A DNA stretch of 64,000 nt, taken from assembly GCF_000153325.1 (NCBI RefSeq), contig NZ_CH724142.1, positions 156,157 through 220,156 of the forward strand. Direction: 5' to 3'. This document shows positions 45,547 through 53,281 of the stretch, one piece after another (the stretch's first letter is position 1; the number at the start of each line of letters is the position of its first letter). Made by a program: the position numbers and the translations under genes. The notes below the pieces were generated by a model. That model did no database searches and was not told the DNA's origin. It saw only the letters and a program-made list of their open reading frames with translations. The DNA is from Photobacterium sp. SKA34. Its GTDB lineage: Bacteria > Pseudomonadota > Gammaproteobacteria > Enterobacterales > Vibrionaceae.

Positions 45547-45928
45547 ATGACAATTTGGGTTATTGGCTCTTTGGGATTGTTGTTACTATTGCAATTAGTC
45601 GTATTAGATATTGTTATTCTTAGTGCAAAAGCACGCCCCTGGTTTTACTATTGAAGCTAACCATGAACACTTTTTATTCCGTGCTAATAGAGCATTAGCT
45701 AATAGCAATGAAAGCCTTGGGATCTTTATTTTATTCGTTCTTTTTCCATTATTTTCTCAGCCGATTGCTCACTGGATTAATGGCTTCGCTGTGGTTTATT
45801 TATTCGTACGAATAGGGCATATGTTGTGTTATTACTTTAATTTAAAAGTATTACGCAGTATCTTTTTCGCGGTGAGTTTACTGGGGCTTATTGGACTATT
45901 TGCTACAGCAGTTATCGCTTGGCTGTAA
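45547..45928 (+). pseudogene. MAPEG-family membrane protein, frameshifted
   Basis: ATG 45547 opens MTIWVIGSLGLLLLLQLVVL...AKARPW and stops soon after; the +1-shifted frame carries on as APGFTIEANHEHFLFRANRA, then SNESLGIFILFVLFPLF to 45928. Together they make one MAPEG (membrane-associated eicosanoid/glutathione) protein of about 125 residues with four helices. The shift lies near GCACGCCCCTGG, around a C run, so one extra base is the simplest cause. A sequencing error is also possible. Confidence 0.65.
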
Positions 45929-46073
45929 ATTGAGTTATTTTATTGTAATGTTAAAGGCTGTTTTAACTCTCGTAGTCGTTGAGTTATGGCTAAATTTTCG
46001 AGAGTGGTGATTTGTAAAAGTTTGTATCTTTTTATTTTTCAATGTTGTTTTTTATTAATAGATTGTGGTATTT

Positions 46074-46102
46074 TTGCCCCGTCTTAGCTTGAGTAAGATA
46101 AT
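46074..46102 (+). promoter_or_regulatory. Predicted promoter of the norspermidine operon
   Basis: -35 TTGCCC (46074-46079), 17-base spacer, -10 GATAAT (46097-46102). Start of transcription would be near 46109, giving a leader of about 380 bases before the first enzyme gene. Confidence 0.4.
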
Positions 46103-46218
46103 AACGTAGTTCACTTAGCAATTACGCAGTAGGTATTTGTGCTTATTTGCATAAATAGAAGGGAATTTATACGGTGTTCAGTTTTGTAATAGCTAACACA
46201 TATTTAAGGAACCCAACA

Positions 46219-46290
46219 GTGGATCTATTATCACTTTCATTTCATTTTGGTTTTCATTTACCGAAATACCGTATTATTACGGAGCCTTGA
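46219..46290 (+). CDS. Candidate leader peptide of the norspermidine operon
   Basis: A 23-codon frame, GTG 46219 to TGA 46290, with AAGGA 8 bases upstream. The peptide begins with Leu/Ser-rich residues and contains LSFHFGFHLPKYR near the middle and end, followed by an acidic-proline C-terminus (TEP). It sits within a 380-base leader before polyamine genes. By analogy with known nascent-peptide control of polyamine genes (SpeFL before speF in E. coli), it may sense a polyamine or precursor through ribosome stalling. The link to control is inference. Confidence 0.5.
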   Translation: MDLLSLSFHFGFHLPKYRIITEP

Positions 46291-46337
46291 TCGTTCCAGA
46301 TCGAAAATCACACTAAACCTTGAATTGCATGTTGTTG

Positions 46338-46373
46338 CAAATGCTTATTGCTTCTGCACATTTGTATTTTTAG
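46338..46373 (+). promoter_or_regulatory. Possible attenuator hairpin after the leader peptide
   Basis: CAAATG (46338-46343) pairs with CATTTG (46359-46364) and is followed by TATTTTTAG. An earlier hairpin, GCAT (46327-46330) with ATGC (46341-46344), would compete for the same bases. Stems are short, so support is weak. Confidence 0.25.
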
Positions 46374-46489
46374 TATGATTTTATATTTAAAAATATCTTA
46401 ACTCGGTATTTATATCGTTATTAATATGGTTTTTACTTATCTTTTGTTACGTTTATTGTGCAAAAGCTAAGTGATGACAGGAACGAAAT

Positions 46490-49399
46490 ATGTCTACACT
46501 TTTTAATTTTGGCGACACTGATCTATCAACAACAGTACCTGTTGTTAATGGTTTATATGACTTAACTCTTGATGAATTGTTATTAAGCCAAGAGCACTAC
46601 GAATCGGATGTACGCTCATACCCAAGACGTTTACCTTTAGCAATAGCGAAAGCGGCAGGTGTATTAGTTGAAGATACCCGTGGGCAATTGTTTATTGATT
46701 GTTTAGCTGGGGCGGGAACGTTAGCACTTGGCTATAATCACCCAGAAATTAATAAGTCAATTGTTGAACAATTAGAATCAGGCCTACCATATCAAACCCT
46801 TGATATAACAACGGTTGCTAAAGATAAATTTATTAAGCAATTGTTGAGCTTTTTACCCGAGTCGTTTGCAAATAATGCCTGTGTGCAATTTTGTGGCCCA
46901 ACAGGGGCTGATGCCGTAGAAGCTGCGATTAAACTTGCCAAACAAACGACAGGTAGAAATACCATGGCAGCTTTTCATGGTGCTTATCATGGAATGACAA
47001 ATGGCACGATGGCGATGATGGGAAATTTAAACACTAAATCTCGCCGTCAAGGGTTAATGGCTGATGTACATTTCTTGCCATTCCCATATTCATTGCGCTG
47101 TCCGTATGGTTTGTCTGGTGATGACGGCGCAAAACAAAGCTTACGTTATATCGAACGCATGCTGAGTGACGATGAAAGTGGAGTTCAAAAACCTGCTGCC
47201 ATCATTGTAGAACCTGTTCAAGGTGAGGGTGGAGTTATTCCTGCGCCTGCTTTTTGGCTGCGAGAATTACGTCGAATAACGCAAGAGCATGGCATTCTAC
47301 TTATCTTTGATGAGATCCAATGTGGTATTGGTAAAACGGGTCATAATTTTGCGTTTGAAGAATCAGGGATCACGCCAGACATTCTTTGTTTATCAAAAGC
47401 TGTAGGCGGTGGTTTGCCAATGTCAGTCCTTGTTTTTAATAAAGAGATTGATAATTGGAATCCTGGAGAGCATACCGGCACATTTCGTGGCAACCAGTTA
47501 GCAATGGCAACAGGGGCTAAAACGTTAGAAATTATTGAACGAGACGGTTTAGTTGAGCATGCTCAAAAAGCGGGTATGTATCTGCGTCGTGGTTTAGAAA
47601 AAGTGGCAGCACAAACTAGCTGTATTGCTGAAGTACGCGGTAAAGGCTTAATGTTGGGCATCGAAATTGTTCAATCCGATGGTAGTAAGAATAAGTTTGA
47701 TGAGCCGATCGCCGCTCCTGAGTTAACCGCTGCGATTCAACGCTCTGCATTAGAGCGTGGTTTGATTATTGAAAAAGGTGGACGTCAAGGCTCTGTATTA
47801 CGTTTTTTACCGCCTCTTATTATTAGTTTCGAACAGCTTGATTTTGTTATTAATACGATTAAAGAGGCTATTGAGGTTCATGTTGAACCGATTGAACAAG
47901 GATTGGTTTTAGAGTCGGATCATAAAGTTAATTGGAAAGATTACTTTATTCAAACGGGTAAAGGTGGCTCTGAGAGCTTTGAAACGGCGCTGAATCAAAC
48001 GACTCAAGTACTGAAAAAAGTCTTTGAACAAACTAATCAGCCTTATTCGGGGATGGATCCTCAATTACTAAAAACGCTAATAAATGGTATTGATTTAAAT
48101 CGGCCGCAGTCCTCACTTGATGCCGTGATTGAGCAAACAGGCGATCTTATCGCGAAGCACTCAATTATGGTGCAACATCCACACTGTATTGCGCATTTGC
48201 ATACCCCGCCACTTGTTCCTGCTATTGCTGCAGAAGCTTTTATTGCCGCATTGAATCAGTCAATGGATTCATGGGATCAGGCCAGTGCAGCAACGTTTGT
48301 TGAACAGAAAATCATTGATTGGTTGTGCGATGTTTATCAATTAGGCCAACAAGCAGATGGTGTGTTTACCAGTGGGGGAACGCAAAGTAATCTGATGGGA
48401 CTATTGTTAGCACGTGACTGGGCTGCCGACACTATCTCTGGTCATAATATTCAGCAACAAGGTTTGCCATCATACGCGGATAAACTACGTATATTATGCT
48501 CTAAAAAATCCCATTTCACCGTGCAAAAATCAGCGTCGTTGATGGGACTTGGTGAACAATCTGTAGTCTGTGTTGATACTAATCCTGATGGCACTATTCA
48601 ATTAGCATCATTGATTACCACGATTGAAGCATTAAAAGCAGATGACCTTATTCCGTTTGCAGTTGTTGGAACAGCAGGTACAACAGACCACGGTGCAATT
48701 GATGATCTTACAGGATTGGCAGATATTTCCGCTCGTCACAATCTTTGGTTCCATGTTGATGGTGCATACGGTGGCGCACTCATTTTAAGTCGTCATCAAA
48801 GTCGTTTGCATGGTATTGAAAAAGCTGATTCTTTAAGCGTTGATTTTCATAAGCTTTTCTTTCAACCGATTAGCTGTGGTGCAGTGTTGGTGAAAGATAA
48901 AGCACACTTTAAGTATCTGCTCCACCATGCAGATTATCTTAACCGTGAAGATGATTTACTGCCAAATTTAGTGGATAAATCAATAGCGACAACTAAGCGT
49001 TTTGATGCTTTAAAAGTGTTAATGACGATGCAAAGTGTTGGCGCTGATGCATTAGGTGAAATGTACGATCATCTTATTAATCAAACGCAACATGTCGCTG
49101 ATTTAGTTAATCAACAATCGCAATATGAGTTATTAGCCGATCCTGCTTTATCAACGGTACTATTCCGTTTTGTAGGTGAAGGAGCAAACTTAACTGAGCA
49201 GCAACTTAATCAACTGAATAAACAATTGCGTATAGATGCCTTAGTGCAAGGACAAGCAGTACTGGGTGAAACTGTTGTTGACGAGAAAGTGGCATTGAAG
49301 TTCACGATTTTAAACCCGTGTTTAACTATTCACGATTTCAAAACCTTATTGAATAAAGTTTCTCAATTAGGCCAATCGCTATTGTCTTCAACTCAGTAA
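46490..49399 (+). CDS. Fused diaminobutyrate aminotransferase / diaminobutyrate decarboxylase
   Basis: A 969-residue two-enzyme protein. N-terminal half (about 1-465): class III aminotransferase forming L-2,4-diaminobutyrate, with LIFDEIQCGIGKTGHNFAFE and the PLP lysine in ILCLSKAVGGG. C-terminal half (about 490-969): group II decarboxylase, with GVFTSGGTQSNLMGLL, FHVDGAYGGALIL and the PLP lysine in SVDFHKLFFQP, giving 1,3-diaminopropane. This fusion is known as the first enzyme of norspermidine synthesis in Vibrio (VC1625 type). AGGA lies 7 bases before ATG. Confidence 0.95.
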   Translation: MSTLFNFGDTDLSTTVPVVNGLYDLTLDELLLSQEHYESDVRSYPRRLPLAIAKAAGVLVEDTRGQLFIDCLAGAGTLALGYNHPEINKSIVEQLESGLPYQTLDITTVAKDKFIKQLLSFLPESFANNACVQFCGPTGADAVEAAIKLAKQTTGRNTMAAFHGAYHGMTNGTMAMMGNLNTKSRRQGLMADVHFLPFPYSLRCPYGLSGDDGAKQSLRYIERMLSDDESGVQKPAAIIVEPVQGEGGVIPAPAFWLRELRRITQEHGILLIFDEIQCGIGKTGHNFAFEESGITPDILCLSKAVGGGLPMSVLVFNKEIDNWNPGEHTGTFRGNQLAMATGAKTLEIIERDGLVEHAQKAGMYLRRGLEKVAAQTSCIAEVRGKGLMLGIEIVQSDGSKNKFDEPIAAPELTAAIQRSALERGLIIEKGGRQGSVLRFLPPLIISFEQLDFVINTIKEAIEVHVEPIEQGLVLESDHKVNWKDYFIQTGKGGSESFETALNQTTQVLKKVFEQTNQPYSGMDPQLLKTLINGIDLNRPQSSLDAVIEQTGDLIAKHSIMVQHPHCIAHLHTPPLVPAIAAEAFIAALNQSMDSWDQASAATFVEQKIIDWLCDVYQLGQQADGVFTSGGTQSNLMGLLLARDWAADTISGHNIQQQGLPSYADKLRILCSKKSHFTVQKSASLMGLGEQSVVCVDTNPDGTIQLASLITTIEALKADDLIPFAVVGTAGTTDHGAIDDLTGLADISARHNLWFHVDGAYGGALILSRHQSRLHGIEKADSLSVDFHKLFFQPISCGAVLVKDKAHFKYLLHHADYLNREDDLLPNLVDKSIATTKRFDALKVLMTMQSVGADALGEMYDHLINQTQHVADLVNQQSQYELLADPALSTVLFRFVGEGANLTEQQLNQLNKQLRIDALVQGQAVLGETVVDEKVALKFTILNPCLTIHDFKTLLNKVSQLGQSLLSSTQ

Positions 49400-49439: not shown

Positions 49440-50684
49440 ATGGCTATTTTACAAATTGGTGCTGGTGGTGTTGGCTGGGTTGTCGCACATAAAGCGGCTC
49501 AGAATAATGATGTGCTCGGCGATATTACATTAGCTTCTCGTACAATCAGTAAATGTGAAAAGATTATTAGCTCAATTGATAAGAAAAATAATCTAAAAGA
49601 TCCGACGAAGACAATTCAAGCACGTGCTGTCAATGCAGACGATGTTGATGCATTAGTTGCTTTAATTGAAGACGTGAAACCCGACTTGGTAATTAATGCA
49701 GGGCCTCCTTGGGTCAATATGGCGATAATGGAAGCGTGCTACCAAGCGAAAGTTTCTTATCTCGATACTTCTGTTGCTGTTGATTTATGCTCTGAAGGTC
49801 AGCAAGTACCTCAAGCTTATGATTGGCAATGGGGTTACCGTGAGAAATTCAAGCAGGCAGGTATTACAGGGATTTTAGGTGCGGGGTTTGATCCTGGTGT
49901 AGTGAGTGTTTTTGCTGCTTATGCAGTAAAGCATTTGTTTGATGAAATAGACACCATTGATGTAATGGATGTAAACGCAGGTGATCACGGTAAGAAGTTT
50001 GCGACTAACTTTGATCCCGAAACCAATATGTTGGAAATCCAAGGCGATTCTTTCTATTGGGAAAATGGTGAATGGAAACAAGTGGGCTGTCATAGCCGTA
50101 TGCTTGAATTTGATTTCCCGTTAGTAGGTAAGCATAAAGTTTATTCTATGGCACATGATGAAGTGCGCTCTATGCAGGAGTTTATTCCAGCAAAACGTAT
50201 TGAGTTTTGGATGGGTTTTGGTGATGCATACCTGAACTATTTTAACTGTATGCGTGATATTGGCTTATTAAGTCCAGATCCACTAACGCTTCATGATGGA
50301 ACTGTCGTACAACCACTGCATGTTTTAAAAGCGTTATTACCTGATCCAACATCATTAGCGCCGGGTTACACGGGAAAAACCTGTATCGGTACTTGGGTAC
50401 AAGGTAAAAAAGACGGCAAAGAACGCAGTGTGTTTATTTACAACAACGCTGATCATGAAGTGGCGTATGAAGATGTAGAGCATCAAGCAATTTCATACAC
50501 AACAGGTGTTCCTGCTATTACTGCCGCATTACAGTTCTTTAATGGTAAATGGGCGGATAAAGGTGTGTTTAATATGGAGCAGCTAGACCCAGACCCATTC
50601 TTAGCGACAATGCCAACAATCGGTTTAGATTGGCATGTACAAGAATTGCCAGTGGGTCAGCCTGATATTCAAATCTTGAAATAA
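49440..50684 (+). CDS. Carboxynorspermidine synthase (dehydrogenase)
   Basis: A 414-residue saccharopine-dehydrogenase-like enzyme that couples 1,3-diaminopropane with aspartate semialdehyde and reduces the imine with NADPH to carboxynorspermidine. The N-terminal Rossmann motif is ILQIGAGGVGWVVAHKAAQN; VINAGPPWVNMAIMEAC and GAGFDPGVVSVFAAYA mark the family. It lies 40 bases after the aminotransferase/decarboxylase gene with AAGGA before the ATG, in the same order as in V. cholerae. Confidence 0.95.
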   Translation: MAILQIGAGGVGWVVAHKAAQNNDVLGDITLASRTISKCEKIISSIDKKNNLKDPTKTIQARAVNADDVDALVALIEDVKPDLVINAGPPWVNMAIMEACYQAKVSYLDTSVAVDLCSEGQQVPQAYDWQWGYREKFKQAGITGILGAGFDPGVVSVFAAYAVKHLFDEIDTIDVMDVNAGDHGKKFATNFDPETNMLEIQGDSFYWENGEWKQVGCHSRMLEFDFPLVGKHKVYSMAHDEVRSMQEFIPAKRIEFWMGFGDAYLNYFNCMRDIGLLSPDPLTLHDGTVVQPLHVLKALLPDPTSLAPGYTGKTCIGTWVQGKKDGKERSVFIYNNADHEVAYEDVEHQAISYTTGVPAITAALQFFNGKWADKGVFNMEQLDPDPFLATMPTIGLDWHVQELPVGQPDIQILK

Positions 50685-50757: not shown

Positions 50758-51876
50758 TTGAAAACGCCATATTTCATGATTGATGAGCAGAAGCTGATCA
50801 ATAATTTAGAGCAAGCCAAAAAGTTAAAACAATTATCTGGTGTAAAACTGGTACTCGCGTTGAAGTGTTTTTCAACATGGGGCGTGTTTGATGTCATGAA
50901 GCCATATCTTGACGGCACAACCAGTAGTGGGCCATTTGAAGTCAGGTTAGGTGCTGAAAAATTTGGTGGTGAAACTCATGCTTATAGCGTTGGATATAGC
51001 CAAGAAGATGTAGAAGAGGTCCTACAGTACTGTAATAAAATCATTTTTAACTCTGTTTCTCAATTGCAAGCCAATCGCCATTTGGCTGACGGCAAGGCGT
51101 CAGTTGGTCTTCGTTTAAATCCGGGTATAAGTTGTGCAGGGCAAGATTTAGCTGATCCTGCTCGTCAATATTCGCGTTTAGGAGTGCAAGAAAACCTATT
51201 AATAGATGAACTGTTTGATGATCTCGATGGCGCGATGTTTCATATGAACTGTGAAAATAAAAGTGCAGATGCGTTTATTGCGTTATTAGATTCTATATCA
51301 GAACGTTTCGGGCGTTATTTGGAAAAACTTGATTGGGTGAGTTTAGGTGGCGGTGTTTTCTTCACTTGGCCGGATTACGAGTTAGAAAAGTTGGCTGCGG
51401 CTTTAAAAATATTTGCAGAGCGATTTGATGTGCAATTATATCTAGAGCCTGGTGAAGCAATTATTACTCAAACTACTGACTTAGCGGTGACCGTGGTTGA
51501 TATTGTCGAAAATGGTATTAAAACAGCGATTGTAGATAGCGCAACAGAAGCGCATCGACTCGATACTTTAATTTATAATGAACCTGCCACAATTAGTGAA
51601 GCATCTGAAAAGGGGAACCATCAATATGTGATTGGTAGTTGTTCTTGTTTAGCAGGCGATCAATTCTGTGTGGCGAATTTTGAACAGCCATTAGCTATTG
51701 GGCAGAAATTACACATAGCAGATAGCGCGGGTTATACCATGGTGAAGCTTAATTGGTTCAATGGATTAAGAATGCCTAGTATTTATTGTCGTCGAATCGA
51801 TGGCGCTGTAGAAAAATTAAACGAATTCACTTATCAAGATTTTGAGTCTTCATTATCACGATTTCTTATTTCGTAA
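50758..51876 (+). CDS. nspC: Carboxynorspermidine decarboxylase
   Basis: A 372-residue PLP enzyme of the alanine-racemase-fold decarboxylases making norspermidine (or spermidine from carboxyspermidine). [18 protein letters not shown] carries the PLP lysine; [28 protein letters not shown] and [12 protein letters not shown] are the phosphate-binding parts; [11 protein letters not shown] contains the catalytic Cys with the following Asp. It starts with TTG at 50758, a weak start, after an in-operon hairpin. Norspermidine is linked to biofilm formation in Vibrio. Confidence 0.95.
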
Positions 51877-52091: not shown

Positions 52092-52165
52092 GGCGCGTTG
52101 GCAGAGTGGCTATGCAGCGGATTGCAAATCCGTGGACCTCGGTTCGACTCCGGGACGCGCCTCCA
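52092..52165 (+). tRNA. tRNA-Cys (GCA), copy 1
   Basis: Acceptor GGCGCGT/ACGCGCC, anticodon stem CGGAT/ATCCG around GCA, T-arm GGTTCGACTCC, and encoded CCA end. First in the array. Confidence 0.95.
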
Positions 52166-52184
52166 TTCTCTTATGAGAATCTAT

Positions 52185-52260
52185 GCGACACTAGCTCAGC
52201 TGGTAGAGCGCAACCTTGCCAAGGTTGAGGTCATCGGTTCGAACCCGATGTGTCGCTCCA
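52185..52260 (+). tRNA. tRNA-Gly (GCC), copy 1
   Basis: Acceptor GCGACAC/GTGTCGC, anticodon loop with GCC flanked by AACCT and AGGTT, CCA encoded. Confidence 0.95.
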
Positions 52261-52323
52261 AATTAAAGATTATGGCGAAAGCGGTAATCACAGATGGTGT
52301 CTAACCATCGCAAGAAATTGCGT
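52261..52323 (+). other. Spacer with two hairpins between tRNA-Gly and tRNA-Leu
   Basis: Hairpin GATGGT/ACCATC (52293-52309) and CGCAA-GAAA-TTGCG (52309-52322) with a GNRA-type loop. The same spacer occurs three times in the array at 339-base intervals. Confidence 0.6.
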
Positions 52324-52410
52324 GCCCTGGTGGTGGAATTGGTAGACACAAGGGATTTAAAATCCCTCGGCGTTCGCGCTGTGCCGGTTCAAGTCCGGCC
52401 CGGGGCACCA
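52324..52410 (+). tRNA. tRNA-Leu (TAA), copy 1
   Basis: Class II tRNA with long variable arm. Anticodon stem GGGAT/ATCCC around TTAAA gives anticodon TAA; acceptor GCCCTGG/CCGGGGC; CCA encoded. Confidence 0.95.
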
Positions 52411-52430
52411 TCTAATTGAGAAGTAAAAAT

Positions 52431-52504
52431 GGCGCGTTGGCAGAGTGGCTATGCAGCGGATTGCAAATCCGTGGACCTCGGTTCGACTCCGGGACGCGCC
52501 TCCA
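52431..52504 (+). tRNA. tRNA-Cys (GCA), copy 2
   Basis: Identical to copy 1, 339 bases on. Confidence 0.95.
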
Positions 52505-52523
52505 TTCTCTTATGAGAATCTAT

Positions 52524-52599
52524 GCGACACTAGCTCAGCTGGTAGAGCGCAACCTTGCCAAGGTTGAGGTCATCGGTTCGAACCCGATGTGTCGCTCCA
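52524..52599 (+). tRNA. tRNA-Gly (GCC), copy 2
   Basis: Identical to copy 1. Confidence 0.95.
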
Positions 52600-52662
52600 A
52601 ATTAAAGATTATGGCGAAAGCGGTAATCACAGATGGTGTCTAACCATCGCAAGAAATTGCGT

Positions 52663-52749
52663 GCCCTGGTGGTGGAATTGGTAGACACAAGGGATTTAAA
52701 ATCCCTCGGCGTTCGCGCTGTGCCGGTTCAAGTCCGGCCCGGGGCACCA
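52663..52749 (+). tRNA. tRNA-Leu (TAA), copy 2
   Basis: Identical to copy 1. Confidence 0.95.
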
Positions 52750-52769
52750 TCTAATTGAGAAGTAAAAAT

Positions 52770-52843
52770 GGCGCGTTGGCAGAGTGGCTATGCAGCGGAT
52801 TGCAAATCCGTGAACCTCGGTTCGACTCCGGGACGCGCCTCCA
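52770..52843 (+). tRNA. tRNA-Cys (GCA), copy 3
   Basis: As copy 1 but with A instead of G in the variable region after the anticodon stem (CCGTGAACC). Confidence 0.94.
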
Positions 52844-52862
52844 TTCTCTTATGAGAATCTAT

Positions 52863-52938
52863 GCGACACTAGCTCAGCTGGTAGAGCGCAACCTTGCCAA
52901 GGTTGAGGTCATCGGTTCGAACCCGATGTGTCGCTCCA
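52863..52938 (+). tRNA. tRNA-Gly (GCC), copy 3
   Basis: Identical to copy 1. Confidence 0.95.
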
Positions 52939-53001
52939 AATTAAAGATTATGGCGAAAGCGGTAGTCACAGATGGTGTCTAATCATCGCAAGAAATTGCG
53001 T

Positions 53002-53088
53002 GCCCTGGTGGTGGAATTGGTAGACACAAGGGATTTAAAATCCCTCGGCGTTCGCGCTGTGCCGGTTCAAGTCCGGCCCGGGGCACCA
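53002..53088 (+). tRNA. tRNA-Leu (TAA), copy 3
   Basis: Identical to copy 1; the spacer before it has a C to T change that still allows G-U pairing in the hairpin stem. Confidence 0.95.
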
Positions 53089-53108
53089 TCTATTTGATAA
53101 GTAAAAAT

Positions 53109-53182
53109 GGCGCGTTAGCAGAGTGGCTATGCAGCGGATTGCAAATCCGTGTACCTCGGTTCGACTCCGGGACGCGCCTCCA
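53109..53182 (+). tRNA. tRNA-Cys (GCA), copy 4
   Basis: As copy 1 but with A in place of G at position 9 (GCGTTAGC) and T in the variable region (CCGTGTACC). All stems are intact. Confidence 0.93.
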
Positions 53183-53196
53183 TTATCTAAAAATAA

Positions 53197-53281
53197 GCCC
53201 GAGTGGTGAAATTGGTATACACGACGGATTCAAAATCCGTTTCCTTCGGGAGTGACGGTTCAAGTCCGTCCTCGGGCACCA
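53197..53281 (+). tRNA. tRNA-Leu (CAA)
   Basis: Class II tRNA: acceptor GCCCGAG/CTCGGGC, anticodon stem CGGAT/ATCCG around TCAAA gives CAA, long variable arm, CCA encoded. Last tRNA of the array. Confidence 0.95.

Follow-up and report, generated by a model that had tools for sequence, protein, structure and literature searches.

The control of norspermidine synthesis is of direct interest because in Vibrio cholerae this polyamine is a driver of biofilm formation and also acts as a signal for cell lysis (PMC10914755; papers given by PMC number are cited from excerpts). Here we ask whether a short ORF upstream of the norspermidine genes of Photobacterium sp. SKA34 is translated as a leader peptide, and by what route it could influence a gene that starts much further downstream. 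The window, by which we mean the whole stretch of DNA that was analysed, is 64,000 nt long. A full-text search of the open-licence literature found no publication on the leader of the norspermidine operon, and the excerpts of the V. parahaemolyticus transcriptome paper PMC8577284 contained no relevant mention of this leader.

The norspermidine operon and its leader

The following features of the leader and the operon are used below; all are on the forward strand.

46076–46218, forward: DABA-DC-AT-like structured RNA (Rfam RF02951; cmscan, 53.1 bits, E 1.7e-11)
46206–46210, forward: Shine-Dalgarno (SD) sequence AAGGA of the leader ORF, within the 3′ end of the RF02951 element (from the sequence)
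46219–46290, forward: leader peptide ORF, GTG start, 23 codons, MDLLSLSFHFGFHLPKYRIITEP, UGA stop at 46288–46290 (from the sequence and conservation of the frame)
46269–46282, forward: hairpin CCGTA-TTAT-TACGG inside the leader ORF, just 5′ of the stop codon (comparative permutation test)
46276–46290, forward: Ile-Thr-Glu-Pro-UGA C-terminus, putative slow-termination context (TEP in 136 and UGA in 135 of 137 ORFs)
46291–46297, forward: UCGUUCC, 5′ arm of a predicted SD-masking helix (fold and comparative test)
46480–46486, forward: GGAACGA, SD region of dat-ddc, 3′ arm of the predicted helix
46490–49399, forward: diaminobutyrate aminotransferase/L-2,4-diaminobutyrate decarboxylase fusion (dat-ddc), the presumed regulated gene
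49440–50684, forward: carboxynorspermidine synthase (NF043000, 861.7 bits, cut-off 800)
50758–51876, forward: carboxynorspermidine decarboxylase nspC (TIGR01047, 487.8 bits, cut-off 409.05)

The N-terminal half of the dat-ddc product matched TIGR00709 (NCBIfam) above its cut-off and the C-terminal half matched NF052646 below its cut-off; the P. angustum locus L009 encodes a 98% match to this protein. A preliminary description of the window had recorded a 23-codon GTG frame with an AAGGA site about 200 bases ahead of the gene. The sequence bears out the coordinates of this frame, and the distance from its stop codon to the dat-ddc ATG (46490) is 199 bases. No intrinsic-terminator-like site was found between 45900 and 46520 of the window, and attenuation at an intrinsic terminator was set aside. 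Taken alone, the window leader ORF is within chance expectation, as an ORF of at least 20 codons with an SD-like site was present in 462 of 2000 shuffles of the window leader. The ORF is significant because it is conserved across leaders, as described below.

Upstream of the leader lies what looks like a broken gene for a MAPEG-family membrane protein (PF01124, 45547–45928). The frame at 45611–45928 covers only profile positions 44–128, and the likely N-terminal part begins at an ATG at 45547 in a different frame and stops after 35 residues. Right after nspC there is a tRNA array (52092–53281) that consists of three Cys-Gly-Leu(taa) units 339 bases apart, followed by Cys and Leu(caa).

The RF02951 motif was reportedly defined in a NAR 2017 paper, and no mechanism for it turned up in our search of open-licence full texts. 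The window match was obtained in a 551-base search and spans the model from end to end (positions 1–149). Its score is about 3 bits under the gathering cut-off of 56.1 bits, and it is not listed in a scan of the whole window at gathering thresholds; we treat it as a divergent relative that narrowly misses the curated threshold. It is the same RNA in the same place, the leader of the DABA aminotransferase/decarboxylase gene (46076–46218, with the gene at 46490), and the last base of the model is the base that precedes the leader start codon. In contrast, the leader ORF, the hairpin within it and the putative helix between the stop region and the distal SD sequence all lie outside the Rfam model.

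RF02951 scored over the cut-off in 16 of 17 named relatives scanned and occurred in 288 of the 329 genomes examined from the Vibrionaceae, with 269 above the cut-off and one match each among the matches listed. An order-wide draw of 394 genomes contained the RNA in 32, every one of them from the Vibrionaceae. When 18 genomes without RF02951 were searched for dat-ddc, no hit at E 1e-100 was obtained in 15. In genome G066, also without the RNA, the only match covered one half of dat-ddc at 40% identity. G036 and G047 carried divergent full-length versions (60–61%), and about 780 nt of sequence 5′ of the gene lacked both the start pattern and the TEP-stop pattern described below. Truncation of the gene was also seen: in the Aliivibrio-like genomes G010 (L185) and G012 (L184) dat-ddc is cut to its decarboxylase half with RF02951 and the leader ORF intact. 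In G001 (L183, reverse strand) the RNA is kept, the dat-ddc match is gone and the leader ORF has decayed; its frame continues into what appears by eye to be a dat-ddc remnant.

Conservation of the leader ORF and its peptide

An initial motif search with His/Phe patterns identified the frame only in P. angustum-like and Enterovibrio/Grimontia-type loci, and it was replaced by a rule based on the start codon. We found that an NUG directly 3′ of CCCAAC(N) opens an ORF ending in Thr-Glu-Pro-UGA in 71 of 71 Vibrionaceae leaders. This set comprises the window and 70 of 80 loci found through the downstream protein; L033 was excluded because its contig extends only 29 nt upstream, and nine non-Vibrionaceae loci (L078, L079 and L081–L087) are outside the set. 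A second Vibrionaceae sample of 60 leaders, mostly from the genus Photobacterium together with other diverse matches among those listed, was reduced to 36 by removal of 23 duplicates of leaders already counted and one leader with only 25 nt. The TEP-stop ORF was present in 35 of these 36. The sole misfit, L168, has 31 codons and is frameshifted relative to its kin L164, and the ORF of L174 ends in UAA. Lastly, the 30 best RF02951 loci, seven of which duplicate the 71-leader set, each contained exactly one TEP-type leader ORF among the ORFs that end in TEP or follow ATGGGAAACCC.

The leader ORFs start with AUG, GUG or UUG. Single-base variants 5′ of the start codon (CCCAAC-ATG, CCCAAC-GTG and CCCAACA-TTG) keep the NUG frame and break the upstream frames. 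Earlier in-frame starts (GTG at 46174, and the ATG within ATGGGAAACCC of Vibrio) were rejected, as they are disrupted by these one-base CCC-to-NUG changes whereas the NUG stays in frame. The pooled set contains 137 sequences, with 126 distinct ORFs and 105 distinct peptides. A TEP end occurs in 136 of the 137 and a UGA stop, which is read by RF2, in 135; by comparison, UGA ends 5 of the 43 window ORFs of at least 150 codons, none of which has a Glu-Pro end. With the exception of L168, the leader ORFs fall into ten in-frame length classes of 21 to 52 codons. In the V. litoralis/rumoiensis group (L020, L021, L023 and L072) the ORF has 52 codons, does not contain LP and ends in (I/L)TEP-UGA.

We next consider whether the peptide itself is maintained. 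Among close pairs, pN/pS in the reading frame was 0.17 for the 21-codon group, 0.47 for the 23-codon group and 0.28 for the 28-codon group, compared with 1.89 and 1.39, 1.35 and 0.59, and 0.91 and 1.85, respectively, in the two other frames. On the basis of these substitution patterns we strongly infer that the leader ORF is translated and kept as a peptide. The preliminary description had proposed a candidate leader peptide ahead of the norspermidine operon, and had suggested that aligned leaders be inspected for a conserved frame and start codon and for synonymous bias. The frame stood up to this comparison in both sets of leaders, and the 23-codon leader frame is a real feature.

Conservation is concentrated in a few residues. 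Leu14, Pro15, Ile20, Thr21, Glu22 and Pro23 are invariant in all 35 distinct 23-codon ORFs, with four different codons used for Pro15. In the 28-codon group (53 distinct ORFs), Cys17 and ITEP are invariant, Leu14 has two exceptions and Pro15 has one. The conserved part is thus LPxC...ITEP-stop, and the unusual His/Phe pattern to which the preliminary description drew attention was seen only in P. angustum-like leaders; in the window clade LSFHFGFHLPKYR occupies the place of ISFVLPNCS in other Photobacterium leaders. An (L/F)P motif is present in 120 of the 137 ORFs, at codon 14 in 100 of those 120. The distance from this motif to the stop codon is 15 residues in 65 ORFs, 10 in 48 and 27 in 4, so at termination only ITEP would occupy a constant position relative to the peptidyl-transferase centre. 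This variable spacing argues against a classic tunnel-sensing peptide. Trp, which is essential in the TnaC peptide, is absent from the window peptide and present in 3 of the 137 leader ORFs.

Predicted RNA pairing within and downstream of the leader ORF

The preliminary description had placed a weak hairpin after the end of the peptide; a hairpin also lies inside the ORF (46269–46282). Other leaders carry the form CAGTA-TTAT-TACTG. Across the 35 distinct 23-codon ORFs, 98.3% of cells were paired and 7 were double-change cells, compared with a codon-permuted mean of 0.63; neither the paired-cell nor the double-change value was matched in any of 300 codon permutations. The hairpin is longer in the 28-codon Vibrio ORFs, where it likewise exceeded all 300 permutations for paired and double-change cells. 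For the number of pair types, no group stood out from its permutations (the observed number was reached in 127 of 300 for the 23-codon group and 168 of 300 for the 28-codon group), and the 21-codon hairpin was not significant (paired cells reached by 73 of 300 permutations). The structures tested were taken from folds of those same sequences. This comparative support suggests that a hairpin before the stop codon is retained through paired changes.

We also found a possible contact between the ORF and the upstream RNA. In the 28-codon ORFs codon 10 is ATC and codon 11 is AGC, each in 52 of 53 distinct ORFs, such that the third positions of these codons are nearly frozen in Vibrio. Codons 10–12 (AAUCAGCUU) are complementary to a stretch of RF02951 about 110 nt 5′ of the start codon (AAGCUGAUU with AAUCAGCUU), and in 46 of 55 leaders with CAGCTT the strongest pairing partner is located between −135 and −91. 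Synonymous randomisation backed this complementarity in Vibrio (0 of 100 randomisations; 49 leaders) and Photobacterium (1 of 100; 10 leaders), but not in Enterovibrio (86 of 100; 8 leaders) or the window clade (100 of 100; 3 leaders). The pairs showed no covariation, as own and permuted partners scored alike in a comparison based on 70 of the 71 leaders. Thus, a pseudoknot between the RF02951 loop and codons 10–12 is a lead in Vibrio and Photobacterium; we do not propose it for the window itself, as the complementarity is absent from the window clade.

The distance from the leader stop codon to the dat-ddc start is 119–360 nt in the 71 leaders, for 23 of which the gene start was set by eye. 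When three stretches of the window were folded, each minimum-energy structure paired 46291–46297 with the SD region at 46480–46486 (pair probabilities 0.32–0.77). RNAalifold returned no consensus structure for 36 aligned Vibrio stop-to-gene stretches, and therefore permutation tests were used. The stop segment (−9 to +26) paired with its own SD sequence at −11.67 kcal/mol, compared with −10.02 kcal/mol for permuted partners (z −6.4; 0 of 5000 permutations), whereas ten other segments of the same 71 leaders gave z values between −3.2 and +0.2. With slightly different bounds the values were z −7.5 for the 71 leaders and z −6.2 for 45 non-redundant leaders, and mean pairing peaked at the stop codon. 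Within clades the signal was z −2.6 in 36 Vibrio leaders and z −2.6 in 22 Photobacterium-type and Enterovibrio-type leaders; the other 13 leaders belong to neither subgroup. In only 20 of the 71 leaders did the stop region contain the single best partner of the SD sequence. Because relatedness inflates the scores (a control segment reached −3.2) and the segment was chosen after folds had been inspected, we regard the evidence that the stop region is complementary to the dat-ddc SD sequence as good but not final.

We then modelled a ribosome on the leader. With the ribosome at the stop codon, mean openness of the SD sequence in the 71 leaders rose from 0.282 to 0.345, with an increase in 46 of 71 (p 0.007). 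A ribosome modelled eight codons before the stop gave 0.303 (p 0.07), and masking elsewhere downstream left the mean at 0.282. The model supports the direction of the predicted unmasking; the effect is small. As a separate observation, CGGGTATTTCCCG and a CACAC...GTGTG pair occur between the leader stop and the gene in 6 of 8 aligned Enterovibrio/Grimontia-type leaders (L022, L024, L025, L026, L028 and L073).

Models for control of dat-ddc expression

We propose that the leader is a three-part translational switch composed of an RNA gate, a leader ORF with a slow stop and an SD-masking helix, a reading to which we give an even chance of being correct. RF02951, which ends in the leader ribosome-binding site, would probably gate how often the leader ORF is translated. 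Leader ribosomes may then linger at the stop codon, since release is reported to be hampered in a Glu-Pro-UGA context. From the comparative data, the sequence around and immediately 3′ of this codon is predicted to pair with the dat-ddc SD sequence 119–360 nt downstream. With a ribosome held there, the first arm would be covered, the helix would open and the decarboxylase would be translated. If the leader were not translated, or if release were quick, the helix would re-form and the operon would be off. Since the operon makes norspermidine, feedback is the simplest logic; speculatively, the pathway product or polyamine sufficiency might reduce leader translation or speed release and thereby turn the operon off.

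Published work bears on the slow stop from both sides. EP- and DP-stop contexts were associated with high ssrA tagging (PMC7246954, citing Hayes 2002), and release after proline was inefficient in vitro (PMC7246954). In other work, C-terminal Pro-Pro interfered with termination, and in cells lacking RNase II the mRNA was truncated 12 nt past the stop codon, which corresponds to the reach of a halted ribosome (PMC3834316). However, the expression library of PMC7246954 showed no drop for a C-terminal EP, a result that counts against the slow-stop model.

A more detailed version of the switch, which we consider unlikely in full, is that RF02951 is a riboswitch for a norspermidine-pathway metabolite that controls the leader ORF, that the terminating ribosome frees the SD sequence 119–360 nt away, and that in Vibrio and Photobacterium the pseudoknot between the loop and codons 10–12 takes part. 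If true, this would be a two-stage relay, with an RNA sensor followed by a ribosome actuator, in which the programmed slow stop at Glu-Pro-UGA is the timing element. In either version, a leader ORF right after RF02951 would give this catalogued regulatory RNA a concrete, testable output, and suggests a route by which an RNA element ending 200–450 nt 5′ of the gene could act.

The sensor could instead be the peptide, and the RF02951 RNA and the leader peptide are equally good candidates for this role. The preliminary description had suggested that the peptide may respond to norspermidine, spermidine or diaminobutyrate. If the nascent peptide were a metabolite-dependent arrest peptide like SpeFL or TnaC, the metabolite would block release at Pro-UGA, the stalled ribosome would open the SD sequence or block Rho, and RF02951 would be a structured part that loads ribosomes or stabilises the transcript. 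Peptide-level selection, the invariant Cys17 and ITEP of the 53 distinct 28-codon ORFs and the near-universal UGA all fit this reading, and termination arrest is known for both TnaC and SpeFL (PMC8429421). Like SpeFL, the leader peptide of the polyamine synthesis gene speF, the norspermidine ORF is short, conserved and apparently selected as a peptide, and it lies in a polyamine gene leader; like TnaC, which has 24 residues and arrests on tRNA-Pro at UGA, it ends in Pro-UGA (PMC8429421). The systems also differ: SpeFL inhibits RF1 (PMC8429421) whereas the norspermidine leader stops at UGA, and the leader does not share the Trp of TnaC and belongs to a different operon. The variable (L/F)P-to-stop distance, together with 52-codon ORFs that have no (L/F)P and diverge in the middle, would be unusual for a tunnel sensor. 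We judge an arrest peptide to be possible but somewhat unlikely. At the opposite extreme, RF02951 could be an RNA switch acting on its own, with the conserved frame a by-product of RNA conservation. The frozen ATC and AGC codons and the hairpin internal to the ORF would be expected in that case, but the substitution bias is confined to one frame, the ORFs occur in ten in-frame length classes and four Pro codons are used at the invariant Pro15. This RNA-only reading is already disfavoured, and we consider it highly improbable.

Control could also be exerted on transcription, with a ribosome at the leader stop shielding a Rho loading site in the following 119–360 nt, a mechanism described for tnaC and proposed for mdtU. 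The length of that gap in the 71 leaders and the lack of an intrinsic-terminator-like site at 45900–46520 are in keeping with a role for Rho, and the mdtU leader, which responds to spermidine, is a target of Rho (PMC7815308). A Rho mechanism leaves the complementarity between the stop region and the SD sequence unexplained, and we view it as improbable. MdtU, the small ORF ahead of the polyamine genes mdtJI in E. coli, is nevertheless the closest architecture to the one described here (PMC7815308). Its stop codon is 106 nt upstream of the next gene, compared with 119–360 nt in the norspermidine leaders; its translation is required for induction by spermidine; and its best-conserved part is the C-terminal end, which overlaps a stretch predicted to base-pair with the ribosome-binding site of the following gene (PMC7815308). 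The norspermidine leader appears to share this last property, in that complementarity to the dat-ddc ribosome-binding site is found around the end of its ORF. The systems differ in that MdtU ends in ...WRNAL* and precedes exporter genes, whereas the norspermidine leader ends in ITEP* and precedes synthesis genes.

The translational switch that we favour also has a counterpart in ppe2 of M. tuberculosis, in which a B12 riboswitch controls a short uORF on whose translation the gene depends (PMC11260477). The ppe2 ORFs overlap and are coupled by termination-reinitiation (PMC11260477). Because 119–360 nt separate the leader ORF from dat-ddc, coupling in the norspermidine operon would instead go through an RNA helix.
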